DNA from: a virus | Direction: 5' to 3' (one strand) | IMG/VR virus record: IMGVR_UViG_3300031918_000132 | Location: 1 to 26,078 of that record | DNA: 26,078 bases | Part shown: positions 14,217 to 24,618 of the stretch, in pieces | Position numbering within the stretch: the first letter of the stretch is position 1 | How the letters are laid out: the number at the start of each line of letters is the position of its first letter | Notes under the pieces: generated by a model | Seen by the model: only the letters and a program-made list of their open reading frames with translations | Told to the model about the DNA's origin: nothing | Database searches by the model: none | Made by a program: the position numbers and the translations under genes

Positions 14217-15703
14217 AGCTCGATGGCCCCGCGGTCGGCATAGACGGAGCTGTCGTCCTCGTGGCGTTGGGCACGGTCGAGGGCCAGGGCGAGCGCGATG
14301 GCCGCGTCGATCTTGCCCCGCGACTTCGACTTGGCGAGCGTGAAGCCTCGGTCGTTGGACCGAGCGACGGCGTTGAGGACCTGGGCGGCGAAGGACTGGT
14401 CGCCATCGTGGGTCACCTGGCGGTGGACGATGGCCTCGTACAGGCCGCCGACGGCCATGGTCATGCGGTCGACCGACTGGGGCAGCTCCATCATCGGCAA
14501 CCCCTCATCGAGGAGCATCTTTGCCGGCACGTCGAAGAAGCGCGGGTCGAAGCTGACGGCCTCGACCGAATACGCCGCATCGAGGTCCCGGATGTGCTGC
14601 ATGACGTCCGTCACGTCCACCGGCCGATCCGGGGTCGGCGTCCAGATGCGGCAGACCGCGTGATAGCGCCCGTCGGGACGCCGCTGGATGGCGACCACGG
14701 CGCTGGTGTCCCTCTTCAGCGCGATGTCCACACCGACCCACGTGGGCGCTCCCTCCACGAACCCATAGGGGTTTGTCAGGCCCTCCCACAGTGCAGCGCC
14801 GTCCGCGCCCAGCCAGGCGTCCACGCCATCGACCCACTGGCCCAGGCGGAAGGTCCGGAAGTGCCCCTCGGGCGTGATGCCGAGGTCCGTCTCCAGTGCC
14901 GACATGCGCAGGAACCCGGCCCGGATCGCAGGGTTCGCCTTGCGCCATGCCTGCCGGTCATCGAGCGCGCACCCCTCCGGCGCCGCGTGCTCGCGGAACA
15001 CGAACCCGGGCAGGTCGCCACCCTCCCTGACCAGCCGGCGCAGGAACCACAGGGCGTTGTCCCGGTCTGTCCCGGGAGTCCCGAGACCGACCGACAGGGA
15101 CCGCTCGCGCTTGCCCGACGCCAGCCGCAGGCTGTCCCACGAGTCCTGCGGCTGGAACCCGATCTCGTCCACGATGGCCAGGCTGGCGTCGAGCCCTTGG
15201 ATGCCCTCCGGCTGGTTCGACATCGGGAACATCTCGCCACCGTTGAACGGCGCGACGATGCGTGGCTGGGCGAACCCCGTGAAGATCAGCGACCGGCGCA
15301 GCAGCTCGGGCTCGGCCCTGACCATGGCCGCCGCGACGCCGTAGCACGAACGGACGGCCTGGGTGATCGTGGTTGCGATGATCGGCACCTGGGGCGAGCC
15401 CGTCGCGTCATCGTCGAACAGCGCCCACGTGGCGAGCGCACCGCCAAGCGAGGACTTCCCATTGCCCCGGGGTGTGGACAGCACGGCCGCGTCGATGCCG
15501 TCCGCGAGCGCCTCCTCGAGGAACTCCTTCTGGAAGCCGGCGAGCTTCATCGGCTGGCCGTGGCCCTTGCCCTTGGGCGCCCGGCAGTACGTCTCCATGA
15601 ACCGGATGGCGCGGCCGTGGCGGGTCCGGATGCGCCACGACCTCCAGGGGCCTGGCGTGGCGATGGCGACGCGCTTGGCCGCGTTCCCCTCGGGGTTGCG
15701 CAT
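14213..15703 (-). CDS. Terminase large subunit
   Basis: This gene encodes 496 residues starting MRNPEGNAAKRVAIATPGPW. The ATG at 15703 shares one base with the HNH gene stop (TGATG). The ATPase has Walker A at residues 76-84 (STPRGNGKS) and Walker B at about 174-180 (SLAIVDE). The nuclease domain has VGVDIALKRDTSAVV with Asp326, AVSFDPRFFD with Asp386, and GKIDAAIALALAL with Asp466 as likely metal ligands. This is a complete phage DNA packaging motor and headful or cos nuclease. It sits after an HNH gene, as in HK97-like phages where the HNH partner aids cleavage. No obvious small terminase gene is adjacent. Confidence 0.95.
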   Translation of the reverse strand: MRNPEGNAAKRVAIATPGPWRSWRIRTRHGRAIRFMETYCRAPKGKGHGQPMKLAGFQKEFLEEALADGIDAAVLSTPRGNGKSSLGGALATWALFDDDATGSPQVPIIATTITQAVRSCYGVAAAMVRAEPELLRRSLIFTGFAQPRIVAPFNGGEMFPMSNQPEGIQGLDASLAIVDEIGFQPQDSWDSLRLASGKRERSLSVGLGTPGTDRDNALWFLRRLVREGGDLPGFVFREHAAPEGCALDDRQAWRKANPAIRAGFLRMSALETDLGITPEGHFRTFRLGQWVDGVDAWLGADGAALWEGLTNPYGFVEGAPTWVGVDIALKRDTSAVVAIQRRPDGRYHAVCRIWTPTPDRPVDVTDVMQHIRDLDAAYSVEAVSFDPRFFDVPAKMLLDEGLPMMELPQSVDRMTMAVGGLYEAIVHRQVTHDGDQSFAAQVLNAVARSNDRGFTLAKSKSRGKIDAAIALALALDRAQRHEDDSSVYADRGAIEL

Positions 15704-16077
15704 CAGCGTGGCCGCTCTGTAGGGGCAAGAACTGCTGCCCGGGTCATCTGGCGTGCGTTTCCGCCGAAGTTTTGGACCCGCCCCGCCTTGGACCTCTCGT
15801 TGCAGGGTCTGCAGCTCACGATGTAGCCCTGTGTCGGGTCGCCATCGACCACGTGCGCAGCCACCCATGCAGAGCGCGGGGTGATCCACGTTCCACAGCC
15901 ATAGCCACAGGGCCGAGGCAACGTGGTGGCCAGACGCTCACGAGCTGACTGGTGGACCGGACCGTATCCCCGCTCGCTGGTCGTGCGACGGTGGAGCGCG
16001 CACCGACCACGTCCTCCGGGCACGGCTGGCGCAGGGCACCGGGGGGCAGCGCACGACAGAGGCACCCCTGCACTCAC
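15703..16077 (-). CDS. Terminase-associated HNH endonuclease
   Basis: This gene encodes 124 residues from a GTG at 16077 overlapping the upstream stop as GTGA. The N-terminus has Cys pairs (CAAPRCPAPAVPGGRGRCAL ending in a His), then CGYGCG. The HNH core is AAHVVDGDPTQGYIVSCRPC followed by NERSKAG: His from AHV, Asp from DGD and Asn from CNERS, with Cys residues for a structural zinc. Small HNH proteins encoded next to the large terminase are part of the packaging machinery in many HK97-like phages. Tight coupling to the terminase separates this one from the free-standing homing-type HNH genes further right. Confidence 0.85.
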   Translation of the reverse strand: MSAGVPLSCAAPRCPAPAVPGGRGRCALHRRTTSERGYGPVHQSARERLATTLPRPCGYGCGTWITPRSAWVAAHVVDGDPTQGYIVSCRPCNERSKAGRVQNFGGNARQMTRAAVLAPTERPR

Positions 16078-16838: not shown

Positions 16839-17530
16839 GGCTTCCTCGTGAAGGGTTCCAACCCCTGTCGAGCGCGGGCCAGCAGGTCGGATGCCTCAGC
16901 GATGGCATCGTCCCTGTCTGCCACCTGCGCCTCGAGCTCTGCGATGCGCGCCTCATCGGGGGGCGCCGTGACCGGGACGGGTCGAAGGACGCGCGTCAAC
17001 CAGATGCCATCGCGTCCCGACTGCGTGCTGTACTTCTGGGCCGCTCGCAGCACGGCCAGCAGCCCGACCGCCTGGTAGTCGAGACACAGCGGGTTCATGA
17101 CCGTGATGGGTCTGCCGCCGATGATGCCCACCATGTGGTTGACGTCCGGGCCGGCGACCCCGTTCATGCAATCGGCGCCCTTGGGCCAGGCGTCGTAGTC
17201 GACCGCGATGCCGAAGATGGCGCGACGCTCCTGCGACAGGATCGCCTTCGCCTGCTCGAAGCCGACCTTCAGGATGCGGGCATGGACGCCAAGATGGGCG
17301 AGCCCTTCGACCATGTCTGTCTCGAAGCCGCTGTGGCAGCCGGTGGTCGGGTTGGGACGACCGCTGCCGCCGCCCGCCTGGATGCGGAACGCCTCGGGCG
17401 TGATGGCAGCAAGACCAGCGGTGGCGGCACCGTGGAGCCATGCTCCCACGGCGGCCCAGCAGTTGGAGAACTGGCAGGTGCTGCCGGTGCGCTGCGTGAC
17501 GTGCTTCGGGACGTAGAACGCTGTGGTCAT
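16835..17530 (-). CDS. Papain-like cysteine peptidase, probable lysin
   Basis: This gene encodes 231 residues starting MTTAFYVPKHVTQRTGSTCQ. The catalytic pattern is clear: GSTCQFSNCWAAVGAWL with Cys24 in the papain-like N-C-W context, DVNHMVGIIGG with His132, and TVMNPL with Asn146 as third residue. This Cys-His-Asn/Asp order fits papain / C39 / CHAP-fold peptidases. The last 50 residues (EARIAELEAQVADRDDAIAE) form a coiled coil, perhaps for oligomerisation or wall binding. It lies directly before two membrane protein genes, so the best guess is an endolysin cutting peptidoglycan peptides. A capsid- or toxin-processing peptidase is possible, and no known cell-wall-binding domain is visible. 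The peptidase call is firm; the lysin role is inference. Confidence 0.7.
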   Translation of the reverse strand: MTTAFYVPKHVTQRTGSTCQFSNCWAAVGAWLHGAATAGLAAITPEAFRIQAGGGSGRPNPTTGCHSGFETDMVEGLAHLGVHARILKVGFEQAKAILSQERRAIFGIAVDYDAWPKGADCMNGVAGPDVNHMVGIIGGRPITVMNPLCLDYQAVGLLAVLRAAQKYSTQSGRDGIWLTRVLRPVPVTAPPDEARIAELEAQVADRDDAIAEASDLLARARQGLEPFTRKP

Positions 17531-18009
17531 GAGACCTCCTTACGCGTCGGCATCCACCATCGGTTGCGACCCTTGGAGATCGCGTCGCGGGCGTTGTCCT
17601 CGTAGGTGCCGAGGAACAAGTGGCCGTCGGGGTACTGCTCGTCAGGTTCCGTCTTCACGCAGGGCGGGTTGTCGCAGTGATGGCAGACGAGCATCCCGGT
17701 CGGGATGGTTCCGTTGGCCAGCTCCCAGGCGAAACGATGAGCCACCGTCTCTCCGAGGGCGAGCCCTCCGCTGAATGCTCCGTACCCGCGCCTGCGCCGT
17801 CCACCAATCCAGAGCCAGCAGCCGGATCCTTTCTGCACCCTCGCCCAGAAACGTTCGGCGACCGACCCCCTGACTTTCGTGAAGCCCCGCAGCGGCACGT
17901 CGGGTCGAACATCGCCATGCTTCAGATAGCGCACGTAGTGCCCCTGGCACCATCCCCGGGCGCTTGAAACGCGCTCGCAGCCATCGACCGCGCAGATAGA
18001 CTTCGCCAC
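17527..18009 (-). CDS. HNH homing-type endonuclease
   Basis: This gene encodes 160 residues from a GTG at 18009 with GGAAGGGAG 7-8 bases upstream; this start places the first Cys as in the related plus-strand HNH protein (MAKSICAVDGC versus MPKGIAGRAHC). Frame upstream to 18093 is open but lacks such a ribosome site. Domains: an N-terminal zinc-finger-like C-x4-C...C-x2-H (residues 6-24), then FWARVQKGSGCWLWIGG, AHRFAWELANG, the HNH core VCHHCDNPPCV (109-118) and HLFLGTYEDNARDAISKGR. This is the common HNH_3-type phage homing endonuclease. It ends with a 4-bp overlap onto the lysin gene. A hairpin at 18040-18068 lies in its leader. Confidence 0.88.
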   Translation of the reverse strand: MAKSICAVDGCERVSSARGWCQGHYVRYLKHGDVRPDVPLRGFTKVRGSVAERFWARVQKGSGCWLWIGGRRRRGYGAFSGGLALGETVAHRFAWELANGTIPTGMLVCHHCDNPPCVKTEPDEQYPDGHLFLGTYEDNARDAISKGRNRWWMPTRKEVS

Positions 18010-18039
18010 GTTAGCGCTCCCTTCCAGAGTGCTGACCAT

Positions 18040-18068
18040 GGCCGAGGTCGTTGACGCGACGCTCGGCC
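18040..18068. other. Strong hairpin in the leader of an HNH gene
   Basis: Arms GGCCGAG+GTCG (18040-18050) and CGAC+CTCGGCC (18057-18060 and 18062-18068) pair over 11 bp with one bulged G at 18061 and a 6-base loop. It lies in the 87-bp gap between the coiled-coil membrane gene stop and the HNH start. No T-run follows in either direction. It could be a U-less terminator or a translation-control hairpin. Confidence 0.5.
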
Positions 18069-18096
18069 GTTCTGTGCTCATTGTCTCATTCATGGC

Positions 18097-18798
18097 CTAT
18101 CTGTTCGCCTCGACGATGACCGCGCCGACCACGAGGACGAACAGGATCAGGCCCGTGATGCCGCCGAGCGCGGCCCAGATGGCGGCGTTGCTCTGCCGTC
18201 CCTCGCTGCGCTGCTCCAGGTTCCCGACCTTGACCGACTCCAGCACGGTGATACGCGACTTCGCCTCGTCCAGCGCCTTCTCCAATGCCGAGATGCGGGT
18301 GCTCGCGAGGGTCTGGTTCGTGTCGATGGTCTTGCTCGTGGCGACCTCCGACTTGTCGATCGCCTTCTGGTTCGCCTCGTCCTGGCGGGCTGCCGCCTCC
18401 TGCTGCGCCTTCAGGGCGGCGGCGACGGCCTCCTGCTGGGCCTTGAACGCGGCATCGAGGGCGACCTTGTTGAGGTCCGACTCGCGCTTGGCGAGCTTGT
18501 CCCGCTCCTCGAACGTCGCCGCCACCTGCGCGAACTTCTGGTCGTGCAGCGTCTCCAGGTGGGAGACCTCCTCGCGGATCCGGCCCGGGACCTCCTCCAG
18601 CGCGTGGAGCCGCAGGGCCGCGGCCTTCTCGTCCCCGTCCAGCCGTGCGATGAGCACGTCCACCTTGCCGTCGATGTAGGTGGTGACCGTCTCGACCGCC
18701 TGCTTGATGGCGGCCGTCGAGAGCAAAGTTGGATCCGGGATGGGCGTGCTGCCCCACATCGTGGGCTGGGCAGACGGCGGGTCGTGCACGACGGTCAT
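18097..18798 (-). CDS. Coiled-coil, C-terminally membrane-anchored protein
   Basis: This gene encodes 233 residues starting MTVVHDPPSAQPTMWGSTPI. ATG 18798 is chosen because the preceding diverged copy of the same N-terminus (19557-19628) begins at the matching codon. A Pro-rich N-terminus (to about residue 24) is followed by a long helical coiled coil (residues 30-200; segments such as HLETLHDQKFAQVAATFEER and KAQQEAAARQDEANQKAIDK) and one transmembrane helix near the C-terminus (AALGGITGLILFVLVVGAVI). The tail-anchored topology and the place just before the lysin and holin-like genes suggest an envelope or lysis role, for example spanin-like bridging, but this is inference. No good ribosome site is visible before the ATG; GGCGGCCGCC is a palindrome there. 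Confidence 0.78.
   Translation of the reverse strand: MTVVHDPPSAQPTMWGSTPIPDPTLLSTAAIKQAVETVTTYIDGKVDVLIARLDGDEKAAALRLHALEEVPGRIREEVSHLETLHDQKFAQVAATFEERDKLAKRESDLNKVALDAAFKAQQEAVAAALKAQQEAAARQDEANQKAIDKSEVATSKTIDTNQTLASTRISALEKALDEAKSRITVLESVKVGNLEQRSEGRQSNAAIWAALGGITGLILFVLVVGAVIVEANR
18731..18747 (+). repeat. 17-bp direct repeat, left copy
   Basis: GGATCCGGGATGGGCGT lies inside codons 18-23 of the coiled-coil membrane gene. It matches 19561-19577 at 16 of 17 positions in the same orientation, 830 bp apart, flanking the plus-strand HNH gene. Confidence 0.85.
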
Positions 18799-18812
18799 CA
18801 GGCGGCCGCCGG

Positions 18813-18818
18813 TACAAT
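18813..18818 (+). promoter_or_regulatory. Possible -10 element for the plus-strand HNH gene
   Basis: TACAAT on the plus strand, 67 bp before the HNH start, is one base from TATAAT and stands out in GC-rich sequence. No convincing -35 hexamer lies 16-18 bp upstream, so this is weak evidence. The two 13-bp repeats follow directly. Confidence 0.35.
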
Positions 18819-18821
18819 GGT

Positions 18822-18853
18822 CGAAACGTCCCGGCGACGCCGAAACGTCCCGG
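18822..18853 (+). repeat. Two 13-bp direct repeats (possible operator) before the HNH gene
   Basis: CGAAACGTCCCGG occurs at 18822-18834 and again, identical, at 18841-18853, spaced 19 bp centre to centre (close to two helical turns). The second copy extends into the palindrome GTCCCGGGAC (18847-18856). They lie between a possible -10 and the ribosome site of the divergently placed HNH gene, and could bind a repressor or the endonuclease itself. Confidence 0.6.
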
Positions 18854-18884
18854 GACATGGCCGAACCTTTGAAGGAGGCTCGAC

Positions 18885-19556
18885 ATGCCCAAGGGTATCG
18901 CGGGACGCGCTCACTGTTCCATCGAAGACTGCGACAAGCTGGTTCACGGCCACGGCCTGTGCACCATGCACACGCTTCGCATCCAGAGGCATGGCGACCT
19001 GTCGATGTCGCGCAGAGCCAAGGACGAACGGGACTTCTGGGCGCGCGTGGACAAGGATCCTGACGGCTGCTGGATCGCCGCCGGGCACGTCACCAGTGCG
19101 GGGTACGCGGCATTCGGCGCTCGTGGCGGCAGAGCCCATCGGTTCACGCTGGAGCAGGCTCTCGGGCGTCCTATCAAGGCCGGGATGCAGGCGCTTCATA
19201 CCTGCGACGTGAAGCTGTGCGTGCGTAACGATCCACCGGGCACTTACGTGCTCGACGGCGTGGCTCGGCCGTGCTATGGACACCTGTGGGAAGGCACCAA
19301 CCAGGAGAACACGGCTGACCGCGTTGCCAAAGAACGGTCGGCCTTCGGGGAGCGCAACGGCGACCATCTGTACCCGGAGCGACGGCCCCGCGGAGTGACG
19401 CAGTGGCGCGCCCGGTTCACCGAGGATGAGATCAGGGACATCCGACGTCGAGCCGAGGCCGGGGAACGGCACATCGACATCGCCGCTGATTACCGGGCAG
19501 GGACGTCGACGATCCATCACATCATCCACCGGGAGTCGTGGAGACACGTCGTCTGA
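18885..19556 (+). CDS. HNH homing-type endonuclease on the opposite strand
   Basis: This gene encodes 223 residues starting MPKGIAGRAHCSIEDCDKLV. AAGGAGG (18872-18878) lies six bases before the ATG. Domains: an N-terminal C-x4-C...C-x2-H finger (CSIEDC...CTMH), FWARVDKDPDGCWIAAGH, GRAHRFTLEQALG, an HNH core of the type LHTCDVKLCVRNDPPG then HLWEGTNQENTADRVAKER, and a C-terminal helix-turn-helix (FTEDEIRDIRRRAEAGERHI; ends TIHHIIHRESW) that likely reads DNA. It is the only gene opposing the rest of the window. It is flanked by two diverged copies of a 24-codon gene start, which points to mobile insertion. The HNH core has VKL where relatives have NPP or NRP, so activity is not certain. Confidence 0.87.
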   Translation: MPKGIAGRAHCSIEDCDKLVHGHGLCTMHTLRIQRHGDLSMSRRAKDERDFWARVDKDPDGCWIAAGHVTSAGYAAFGARGGRAHRFTLEQALGRPIKAGMQALHTCDVKLCVRNDPPGTYVLDGVARPCYGHLWEGTNQENTADRVAKERSAFGERNGDHLYPERRPRGVTQWRARFTEDEIRDIRRRAEAGERHIDIAADYRAGTSTIHHIIHRESWRHVV

Positions 19557-19628
19557 GGTCGGATCGGGGATGGGCGTCGACCCCCAGGCGCCCTGCTGCG
19601 TCTGCGGCTCGGCAGCGGCGGCGGTCAC
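19557..19628 (-). pseudogene. Remnant: first 24 codons of a second copy of the coiled-coil membrane gene
   Basis: Starting at a GTG (19628) the minus strand encodes VTAAAAEPQTQQGAWGSTPI then PDPT, which aligns without gaps to the first 24 codons of the intact gene at 18798. The last ten residues (WGSTPIPDPT) are identical and about 42 of 72 bases match. Homology stops exactly at the stop codon of the plus-strand HNH gene (19554-19556). The open frame beyond that is only antisense to the HNH gene. It is best read as a 5' fragment left by insertion or recombination. Confidence 0.72.
19561..19577 (+). repeat. 17-bp direct repeat, right copy
   Basis: GGATCGGGGATGGGCGT matches 18731-18747 at 16 of 17 positions. 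It begins four bases after the HNH stop codon and lies within the gene-start remnant. Confidence 0.85.
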
Positions 19629-19637
19629 GTCAGGGAT

Positions 19638-19682
19638 GCGACGCGAACGCCGGGGAGGAGGAGGCTCCCGGCGCTGCGTCGC
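19638..19682. terminator. Long two-part hairpin, possible U-less (bidirectional) terminator
   Basis: The outer arms GCGACGC (19638-19644) and GCGTCGC (19676-19682) and the inner arms starting CGCCGGG (19648-19654) and CCCGGCG (19667-19673) nest into one 45-base hairpin. The inner stem extends by AG/CT with a bulged G. It lies between the zinc-ribbon gene stop and the gene-start remnant, and 82 bases after the plus-strand HNH stop. No T-run follows on either strand, so termination is only a suggestion; a leader hairpin is the alternative. Confidence 0.5.
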
Positions 19683-19713
19683 GTGGCCGGTGAGAGACGA
19701 TCACGCTCAGAGG

Positions 19714-19950
19714 CTACGCCCGGGTCAGGCCAACGTGTAACCCTGCCGCCTTGCCGGTCCGGTTCCGGGCCCTCCGTTCGATGGCATATTCGGCGAAACA
19801 GGCACGGCACCAACTGTGGAGCTGACCGGGCTTCTTCAGCGAGAAGAACTCCTGGTCAGCCGGCCAGAACTGCCGGCAGCGTCCGCACCGTCGCTCGATC
19901 CCCAGCTCCGTCAGCCGGAGGTTCGGGCGCAGGGCGACGGCTGGAGTCAT
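19714..19950 (-). CDS. Small zinc-ribbon protein
   Basis: This gene encodes 78 residues starting MTPAVALRPNLRLTELGIER; its start overlaps the upstream stop as ATGA. It has CGRCRQFWPADQEFFSLKKP and then WCRACFAEYAIERRARNRT, a CxxC...CxxC zinc ribbon with a basic helix. Similar short proteins occur beside HNH and endonuclease VII-like genes in actinophages. DNA or RNA binding is likely; no catalytic residues are visible. Confidence 0.72.
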   Translation of the reverse strand: MTPAVALRPNLRLTELGIERRCGRCRQFWPADQEFFSLKKPGQLHSWCRACFAEYAIERRARNRTGKAAGLHVGLTRA

Positions 19951-23018: not shown

Positions 23019-23107
23019 GGCTCGCCGTCCGGTCCGATGAACACGAACCCGAGCACCAGCACCGCCAGCGGCAGCAGCGCCACCAGGATGCCCTCAATCG
23101 TCCACAT
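23015..23107 (-). CDS. 30-residue membrane microprotein
   Basis: This gene encodes 30 residues: MWTIEGILVALLPLAVLVLG, then FVFIGPDGEP. One hydrophobic transmembrane segment (residues 4-24) fills most of it. Coding is supported by overlap at both ends: TGATG with the HNH stop (23107) and GTGA with the resolvase start (23015-23018). The function is unknown; a regulator of a membrane process is possible. Confidence 0.65.
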   Translation of the reverse strand: MWTIEGILVALLPLAVLVLGFVFIGPDGEP

Positions 23108-23631
23108 CACGCAGCATCCCGAGAGCGCGAAGCCGCGTTCCTGCACTGCCTGCACTGTCGACCGTTCTTGCTGGTGTAGACATTCGTGCCCGTGAGCGGA
23201 TGGAGCCCCCTCCGGCAGCGATCGAGACGGACGGACCTCGGCAGCCGACCCTTGGACAGCGCGTCGTGCATGTTGTCAGCCGTGGTGCCCACAAAGATGT
23301 GCGCGGGGTTGACGCAGGGTGGGTTATCGCAGTGGTGGCATCCGAACATGCCCTCGGGGAACGGCTCTCCGTTCGCCAACTCCCATGCGACCTGATGTGC
23401 GGGCCGACTCCCACCCTGGAAAGAGAACTCGCCATACCCGCTGCTCTTTGTCCCAGCCGTCCACAACCAGCAGACCTCAGGACCACCCGAGCGGTCGACC
23501 TTGGCCCAGAAGCGCGAGGCTGGGTCTCCCCACCGATCAGCGTTGTAGCAAGCGTGGCAGGACCGCGACTCGCGCTTCTTGCGCGCTCCACAGCCGCAGA
23601 AGTCATAGCAGGAGGCGTGTCTCTCGTCCAT
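23107..23631 (-). CDS. HNH homing-type endonuclease with structured leader
   Basis: This gene encodes 174 residues from ATG 23631 (MDERHASCYDFCGCGARKKR). GGGAG lies 10 bases before it, although inside a predicted hairpin. The frame is open further up to a GTG at 23757 that would overlap the upstream stop as GTGA (216 residues), so the start is not certain. Domains: an N-terminal Cys cluster (CYDFCGCG...CHAC), FWAKVDRSGGPEVCWLWTAG, AHQVAWELANG, the HNH core CHHCDNPPCVNPAHIFVG (98-115), DNMHDALSKGR, and a C-terminal zinc module (CRRGLHP...CRQC). It is closely similar in motif to the HNH gene at 17527. The HNH core ends NPAH, the full active-site form, so this copy looks active. Confidence 0.87.
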   Translation of the reverse strand: MDERHASCYDFCGCGARKKRESRSCHACYNADRWGDPASRFWAKVDRSGGPEVCWLWTAGTKSSGYGEFSFQGGSRPAHQVAWELANGEPFPEGMFGCHHCDNPPCVNPAHIFVGTTADNMHDALSKGRLPRSVRLDRCRRGLHPLTGTNVYTSKNGRQCRQCRNAASRSRDAA

Positions 23632-23636
23632 TCGGT

Positions 23637-23724
23637 CTGTACTCCCGAACGCGACGCTCCCCGCCAGGAGTACAGCCTGACGGGGAGCGTTGAGCATTGT
23701 ATTCGTGATGGCACCGCTGTACTC
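23637..23724 (-). promoter_or_regulatory. HNH leader with mutually exclusive hairpins
   Basis: Three segments share the motif GAGTACAG or its complement: GGAGTACAG on minus at 23645-23637, its complement CTGTACTCC at 23675-23667, and GAGTACAG at 23724-23717. The middle segment can pair with either outer one (8-9 bp). A further perfect 10-bp stem, ACGCTCCCCG (23654-23663) with CGGGGAGCGT (23681-23690), encloses the middle segment and excludes both pairings. The downstream pairing covers the GGGAG ribosome site of the HNH gene. This looks like a switchable translation-control leader. Confidence 0.6.
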
Positions 23725-23733
23725 GGCCCCCTG

Positions 23734-23739
23734 ATTATA
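23734..23739 (-). promoter_or_regulatory. Candidate -10 box TATAAT
   Basis: An exact TATAAT on the minus strand in very GC-rich sequence, about 103 bases before the HNH start. A transcript starting near 23727 would begin with the structured leader. No matching -35 hexamer is found 16-18 bp upstream and there is no extended TG, so the promoter is plausible but unproven. Confidence 0.5.
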
Positions 23740-23753
23740 CCCCGGCTGCGTGC

Positions 23754-24209
23754 TCACGAGGCATCCTCGGAGGGGCGGGCGAGGGCCGACAGCCATCCCT
23801 TGACCATCACGCATATGCCCGCGTCGGCCATCGGGGTGTCGTGGTTGAGGCACCACTTGCCTTCGGTGCCTCCGCTCGTGGTCGGACAGGACGCCTCACC
23901 GATGGCCTCCTCCAGCGCGGCCCGAAGCTCGACGCACGTGGCGGCGAGCTCGACCGCTCGGGCCATGTAGTAGTCCCGGCTCTCGGTCAGCCGCGCGACC
24001 TCCTGCTGGGCGGCGTCGGCGGCGTCGGCACGGGCGGCGTCGATGATGGCGTCGAAGGAGTTGCAGGGGAAGAACTCGCACACACGCCAGTACGGAGCCG
24101 TATGGTGCTGACCTCGCAACGCGAGTGTGTGGGCGAACTCCAGCGCGTCGATCAGCCTGTGGTTCGGCTCCAGCGCGCGGGCGGGGGTGGGGTCCAAATC
24201 ACGCGACAT
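23754..24209 (-). CDS. Hypothetical protein with coiled coil
   Basis: This gene encodes 151 residues starting MSRDLDPTPARALEPNHRLI; GGGAGG lies about 8 bases before the ATG. An N-terminal helical part with CEFFPCNSF is followed by a coiled coil (AAQQEVARLTESRDYYMARA; VELRAALEEAIGEA) and a Cys-containing end (CPTTSGG...CLNHD...CVMV). Its start overlaps the HNH gene end by 11 bp. The family was not recognised; paired cysteines could bind zinc. Confidence 0.7.
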   Translation of the reverse strand: MSRDLDPTPARALEPNHRLIDALEFAHTLALRGQHHTAPYWRVCEFFPCNSFDAIIDAARADAADAAQQEVARLTESRDYYMARAVELAATCVELRAALEEAIGEASCPTTSGGTEGKWCLNHDTPMADAGICVMVKGWLSALARPSEDAS

Positions 24210-24618
24210 GGGGGTACCTCCCGCGACCTTGGATCCGAGACACCATCGACTGGCTCAGCCCGTATCGGTCTGCAATGACATGCTGCATATCGTTGCTGCC
24301 ACGGATAGACCGGATGTCGTCATCCGTGAGCGAGCTGCGTCGGGCACGCTCGCGCCGGACCATATCGGCCATGTTGTCGGCGTGGGTCCCGGTGTAGAGG
24401 TGGTCTGGGCGCACGCACGGGCGGTTGTCGCACTTGTGTAGGACGAAGCCCACAGACGGGAAATCTCCGTGAGCCAGCATCCACGAGTAGCGATGCGACG
24501 CGACGAGCTTGCCTTTCACCTTGAGCTTCCCGTACCCGCGCCTGTCAGTGCTTCCCGTCCAGACCCAGCACTCTCCGGACCTATCCACGTGACTCCAGAA
24601 ACGGTCGTCGGTGGTCAT
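24199..24618 (-). CDS. HNH homing-type endonuclease with C-terminal helix-turn-helix
   Basis: This gene encodes 139 residues starting MTTDDRFWSHVDRSGECWVW. GGAGG lies 8 bases before the ATG, which overlaps the 42-residue gene stop as ATGA. Core: ECWVWTGSTDRRGYGKLKV, SHRYSWMLAHGDFP, the HNH LHKCDNRPCVRPDHLYTG, and DNMADMVRRERARR. A helix-turn-helix follows (SLTDDDIRSIRGSNDMQHVI; ADRYGLSQSMVSRIQGRGRY), the usual DNA-reading module of such phage endonucleases. It lacks the N-terminal Cys finger of its relatives in this window. It is inserted between small coupled genes. Confidence 0.88.
   Translation of the reverse strand: MTTDDRFWSHVDRSGECWVWTGSTDRRGYGKLKVKGKLVASHRYSWMLAHGDFPSVGFVLHKCDNRPCVRPDHLYTGTHADNMADMVRRERARRSSLTDDDIRSIRGSNDMQHVIADRYGLSQSMVSRIQGRGRYPHVA

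Follow-up and report, generated by a model that had tools for sequence, protein, structure and literature searches.

The arrangement of genes described here has its closest known counterparts in fungi. In the WHO elements at FBA1 of the yeasts Torulaspora and Lachancea, a homing-type endonuclease gene has on one side a full-length target gene with a replaced end of different sequence, and on the other a displaced piece of the end it formerly had. The FBA1 end brought by the element restores the gene and makes it resistant, and the original end is moved aside; cutting has been proven for WHO, and the resistance to it comes from allele differences (PMC7282813). Hybrid genes formed by mobile ORFs in fungal mitochondrial DNA (Allomyces atp6; Glomus atp6, atp9, cox2, and nad3) are similar in having an endonuclease gene between diverged copies of a gene end, with mostly synonymous differences; the atp6 ends match at 63.5% in DNA and 91% in amino acids (PMC3630166). 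The enzymes are of the LAGLIDADG or GIY-YIG types, the ends concerned are C-terminal, and empty alleles are found in close relatives (PMC3630166).

For phages, the likeness is to free-standing endonuclease genes such as the seg and mob genes of T4 (SegG, MobE). In the sections of PMC2988022 drawn on here, co-conversion of flanking sequence is established for the T4 free-standing enzymes, which can also split host genes, and the cleavage site of a free-standing phage endonuclease is often hundreds of bases or more away from the gene that encodes it; those sections describe no stranded, duplicated 5' end of a host gene. Gene-end replacement around a homing-type endonuclease is already known, then; a phage setting and a 5' end are unusual, and no description of this layout in phages was found in a search of open-access text.

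The locus is in IMG/VR record IMGVR_UViG_3300031918_000132, a complete viral record of 26078 bases (GC 68.7%), which was analysed over its whole length and is referred to below as the window. It is a temperate-type phage with a soil-type genome, encoding terminase, portal, capsid and tail proteins and a serine integrase. There are four further HNH-type genes in the record (15703-16077, 17527-18093, 23107-23856, and 24199-24618), one of which overlaps the start of the terminase frame.

At the locus itself (Table 1), an HNH endonuclease gene is enclosed between the start of an intact gene for a coiled-coil protein, on the opposite strand, and a 24-codon stub with a second start of the same kind. 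This is the layout of WHO/FBA1 and of the fungal atp6 and cox2 hybrids, mirrored from the 3' end to the 5' end, and it supplies the analogy for an interpretation by homing. WHO proteins carry a zinc finger fused to an intein-like endonuclease, whereas the enzyme here is of the HNH type; WHO replaces 3' ends and forms clusters, whereas here a 5' end is involved, in a phage, and the window has only one displaced fragment. The sequence-only reading that drew attention to the locus had the positions and arrangement of the two starts and the opposing HNH gene right, as well as the point at which the homology of the fragment ends: the HNH gene stops at 19556, and the last codon of the stub is at 19557.

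Table 1. Features of the locus, listed in the direction of the coiled-coil gene (positions are those of the window).
Feature	Position	Strand	Remarks
HTH protein gene	20801-19947	minus	
Zinc-ribbon/endonuclease-VII-like small gene	19714..19950	minus	Upstream of stub; phrog_3273, E=1.5e-18
Spacer between zinc-ribbon gene and stub			85 bp; contains strong hairpin
GC-rich hairpin	19637..19683		No T run; ~9 nt upstream of stub GTG; fold -35.2 kcal/mol per 60 nt
Stub (24-codon remnant, second gene start; copy 2)	19557..19628	minus	GTG start; adjoins HNH stop codon; VTAAAAEPQTQQGAWGSTPIPDPT
WGSTPIPDPT, stub copy	19557..19586	minus	Ten codons, synonymously recoded
HNH endonuclease gene	18885..19556	plus	223 aa; between stub and intact coiled-coil gene
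Divergent spacer between HNH start and coiled-coil start	18799..18884		86 bp
First 24 codons of coiled-coil gene (copy 1)	18798-18727	minus	MTVVHDPPSAQPTMWGSTPIPDPT; continues into full gene
WGSTPIPDPT, functional copy at intact start	18727..18756	minus	Ten codons
Intact coiled-coil gene	18097..18798	minus	233 aa; predicted C-terminal membrane helix
Second HNH gene	18093-17527	minus	Directly behind coiled-coil gene
Putative lysin gene	17530-16835	minus	

The resemblance between the two starts is concentrated in the decapeptide WGSTPIPDPT, found in both copies on the same strand, 15 codons from the start codon and 830 bp apart. When the window is translated in all six frames, no other decapeptide recurs except CHHCDNPPCV of the HNH core and overlapping peptides from a 42-bp terminal tandem repeat. 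The two motif copies differ at 7 of 30 nucleotides and at none of ten amino acids; among random draws, seven nucleotide changes in 30 bp left all amino acids unaltered roughly once in 100,000 (4-7 in 600,000). This argues that both motifs were kept by selection after they diverged, in functional genes, and the codon pattern points to purifying selection acting on both until recently. The view in the sequence-only reading that this is not a fresh target-site duplication is supported, the copies being diverged starts of one family. Of the two observations that would have refuted that reading, neither was made: two family starts without the HNH gene occur in 0 of about 110 relatives, and the remnant does not begin a full gene of its own.

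Outside the motif there is little to go on. The ~58% identity reported earlier over 72 bp holds (42 of 72 nt), and the supposed 17-bp direct repeat turns out to match at 16 of 17 positions; the longest gap-free repeat between the copies is 29 nt at 79%. An identity of 42/72 is also reached by one of 210 unrelated gene-start pairs in the window, and the best local DNA alignment of the copies (score 30) falls inside the range of shuffled sequences (maximum 32), so DNA identity is uninformative by itself and was rejected as evidence for homology. The 14-codon leaders that precede the motif differ in both DNA and protein. They are identical at 19 of 42 nucleotides, a value that 38 of 210 start-aligned pairs in the window also reach, and the secure homology is therefore limited to the ten motif codons. 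Of the 24 homologous codons originally proposed, those of the motif stand and the leaders are at chance level; the longer figure depends on the equal distance to the start codon.

Relatives of the intact gene in IMG/VR are 35-39% identical to it over the full length and share its N-terminal signature, as in GSTPVPDPTILTTQQL (L053) and GSTPVPDPTELTTAAV (L057). Two pattern scans yielded about 110 distinct phage proteins in which a short, variable leader is followed at the N-terminus by (x)P(V/I)PDPTxLTT. The signature is mostly PVPDPTxLTT; a coiled coil follows, and many have a hydrophobic C-terminal helix. The intact gene in the window has all three (N-terminal signature, coiled coil, and C-terminal hydrophobic helix), and the stub has the signature only. 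Pfam gave no match for the window's coiled-coil protein and PHROG only a weak match to a tape-measure group; profile and motif scans of bacterial genomes found no family member, and no curated name for the family was found. It is widespread and unnamed (L053-L079, L105-L212), often near lysis or tail genes.

Since the signature stands at the N-terminus in the ~110 relatives, the stub is a true family gene start, the start of a second member of the coiled-coil family. Within it the signature ends after PDPT, and the invariant leucine expected two residues later is absent. Past that point the stub frame continues on the antisense strand of the HNH gene; the remnant is accordingly not the beginning of a full separate gene. 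A further candidate remnant, L078, was rejected because its motif is antisense to an unrelated gene.

The W and the I of WGSTPIPDPT are each found in only about one of the 110 relatives at those positions, with the count for I biased by the last pattern scan, which demanded V there. Because these rare residues are shared, the copies look more like close alleles from a single lineage than like paralogues of long standing, on the basis of two residues. In a comparison of 24 codons, too short a stretch to place either copy in a lineage and one that included no close relative, each copy is the best match of the other.

The HNH protein has direct sequence relatives in phrog_3593 (E=3e-18), phrog_1872 (E=7e-16), and phrog_826, as well as among HNH genes of Gordonia, Mycobacterium, and Arthrobacter phages at ~30% identity; a Pfam HNH_3 match (E=0.0045) is under the cut-off. 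Its layout is an N-terminal Cys/His finger-like stretch, an HNH core, and a putative C-terminal helix-turn-helix. In an alignment of 14 HNH proteins (the query and 13 relatives) residues H105, C107, D108, C112, H133, GT137-138, N142, and D145 are invariant. The AF2 model has a mean pLDDT of 73 and no significant PDB match overall; with Foldseek the C-terminal segment weakly matches the IstA helix-turn-helix (probability 0.97, E 0.85), and residues 178-222 match phrog_20467 (E=1.5e-4). In the divergent spacer the gene is preceded by a good ribosome-binding site (GAAGGAGG). Its GC3 is 0.78, compared to 0.95 for the coiled-coil gene, and the other HNH genes in the window are likewise lower.

The explanation that on balance appears probable is that a homing-type, mobile HNH gene entered the coiled-coil gene at the conserved 5' PDPT stretch, leaving a hybrid locus and a stranded 24-codon stub. 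In a mixed infection, the HNH enzyme would cleave an allele lacking the HNH gene, either within the conserved 5' motif or close to it, and repair would copy in the HNH gene together with the synonymously different 5' end of the donor and a new upstream spacer. Because the insert would bring its own start, the coiled-coil gene would stay intact; the old 5' end would be separated from the gene body and left as the stub. The recoded motif may also give the hybrid allele resistance to re-cutting. Homing into a conserved motif, with repair from a donor, would explain together the recoded second start, the HNH gene abutting the stub, and the intact gene start. The good ribosome-binding site, conserved core residues, and lower GC3 of the HNH gene also count in its favour. 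Against it is the finding that the resemblance of the two starts, once the motif is set aside, is at chance level. The motif need not itself be the cut site, since free-standing phage endonucleases often cut far off, according to the sections of PMC2988022 referred to above. The interpretation in the sequence-only reading is the best available and is partly supported: its diverged family starts stand, and the arrival of the HNH gene by co-conversion from a related phage is a proposal. A more specific version, in which the HNH gene travels with a recoded 5' end that restores the broken gene, confers resistance to re-cutting, and strands the old end, so as to be a phage counterpart of WHO, is offered tentatively, as a possibility short of probable.

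No HNH-free allele and no close relative covering the locus was found in searches with the coiled-coil gene, the terminase, the lysin, the HTH gene, or the DNA of the region; that the HNH gene was inserted, which of the copies is foreign, and that the enzyme cuts are therefore inferences. The TerL search did find near-identical contigs (L023-L025, 98.6-100% protein identity), all ending short of the locus. In more distant relatives the flanks of TerL are without the coiled-coil gene. Two Actinomycetota genomes have TerL relatives at 58% (L103, G045) and 52% (L104, G412), which may hint at the host phylum, but no coiled-coil gene.

Nor does the layout recur in the material searched. None of the ~110 relatives has an HNH gene directly before the coiled-coil start. 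Among 131 coiled-coil loci just four have an HNH gene within 6 kb, never abutting the start; the closest (L171) has one 638 bp upstream, and was rejected as a second case because a lysin-like gene intervenes and there is no stub. Viral contigs fetched for the HNH relatives (L004-L022) have no coiled-coil signature near the HNH gene, and a six-frame comparison of flanks, looking for other HNH genes with duplicated flanks, gave only low-complexity noise. By these sequence comparisons the two-start layout is unique among the relatives, and the homing explanation draws on this single locus.

The main alternative is that two paralogues once stood in tandem, and that the HNH gene, with a deletion, replaced the upstream one except for its first 24 codons; the intact start would then never have been replaced. 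No hybrid would then be needed to account for the stub, for the synonymous divergence, or for the HNH gene abutting it, and since no close relative covering the locus was found, a degraded tandem paralogue keeps some weight. Two observations speak against it. Two family starts were seen in none of the ~110 members in the flanks fetched; and the two motifs, with their shared W and I, resemble each other more than they do other members. We consider it unlikely, with a chance that should still be taken seriously.

A second alternative would place the boundary elsewhere, with the stub and the HNH gene (perhaps also the hairpin, as terminator) being foreign and joined upstream of a resident gene as a mosaic junction. 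The stub does lie between the HNH stop codon and a strong hairpin that could end the HNH transcript, and nuclease genes are often found at exchange boundaries between phages (PMC10448857). However, the HNH gene and the intact start have a short divergent spacer in common, and nothing in other phages ties stub, HNH gene, and hairpin together. Such a junction is distinctly doubtful, and is not separable from the homing explanation on present data.

Much less probable is that the stub is in use, with translation starting at GTG 19628, continuing through a 276-aa antisense frame, and re-initiating at TGATG (18800-18796) of the intact gene. Between 19628 and 18798 the frame is uninterrupted and ends in a stop that overlaps the ATG of the intact gene, and ATG 18798 has no Shine-Dalgarno sequence or other ribosome-binding site of its own. 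An open frame of this kind is to be expected, however, as throughout this GC-rich window the codon-aligned antisense frames of genes have just 0-3 stops each, and the 276-aa frame was rejected as a gene on that ground. There is also a strong hairpin where a ribosome-binding site before the GTG would be. These two points, near-open antisense frames throughout the window and the hairpin before the stub start, are why use of the stub is rated low. The intact gene could, moreover, start at an in-frame ATG at 18858 that has AAAGG upstream; its true start is uncertain, and 18858 is a possible alternative. Finally, 19557-19628 might never have been a gene start and match by chance. The chance-level DNA identity would suit this, as would L078, where GTTPVPDPTS has arisen antisense to a different gene. 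But the ten residues are identical and in register, lie on the same strand 830 bp apart, each time 15 codons after a start codon, and carry a family signature; coincidence is hardly credible.

If homing is the correct explanation, phage homing endonucleases could replace gene ends and strand the old ones, in addition to inserting or splitting genes, and gene-end replacement by homing would extend to bacterial viruses and to 5' ends. Hybrid genes, and the mosaic joints seen in phage genomes, would have a source here, and the process would leave a signature that can be searched for, namely two copies of a gene start, differing at synonymous positions, on either side of a nuclease gene. The locus would also be a testable case of target-gene protection through recoding.

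Some smaller features of the region may be noted. The hairpin upstream of the stub ranks fourth of 2602 folding windows in fold energy and may terminate transcription of either the HNH gene or the zinc-ribbon gene. In the divergent spacer, a 13-bp direct repeat, CGAAACGTCCCGG, has two perfect copies at 18822 and 18841, 19 bp apart (span 18822-18853), and occurs nowhere else in the window; the pair may be operator-like. The 42-bp tandem repeat is at the end of the contig (25953-26078, about three copies) and is open in several frames (APSVVAGVEEL / LLHAGDDGRG); it is perhaps a terminal or assembly-end feature.
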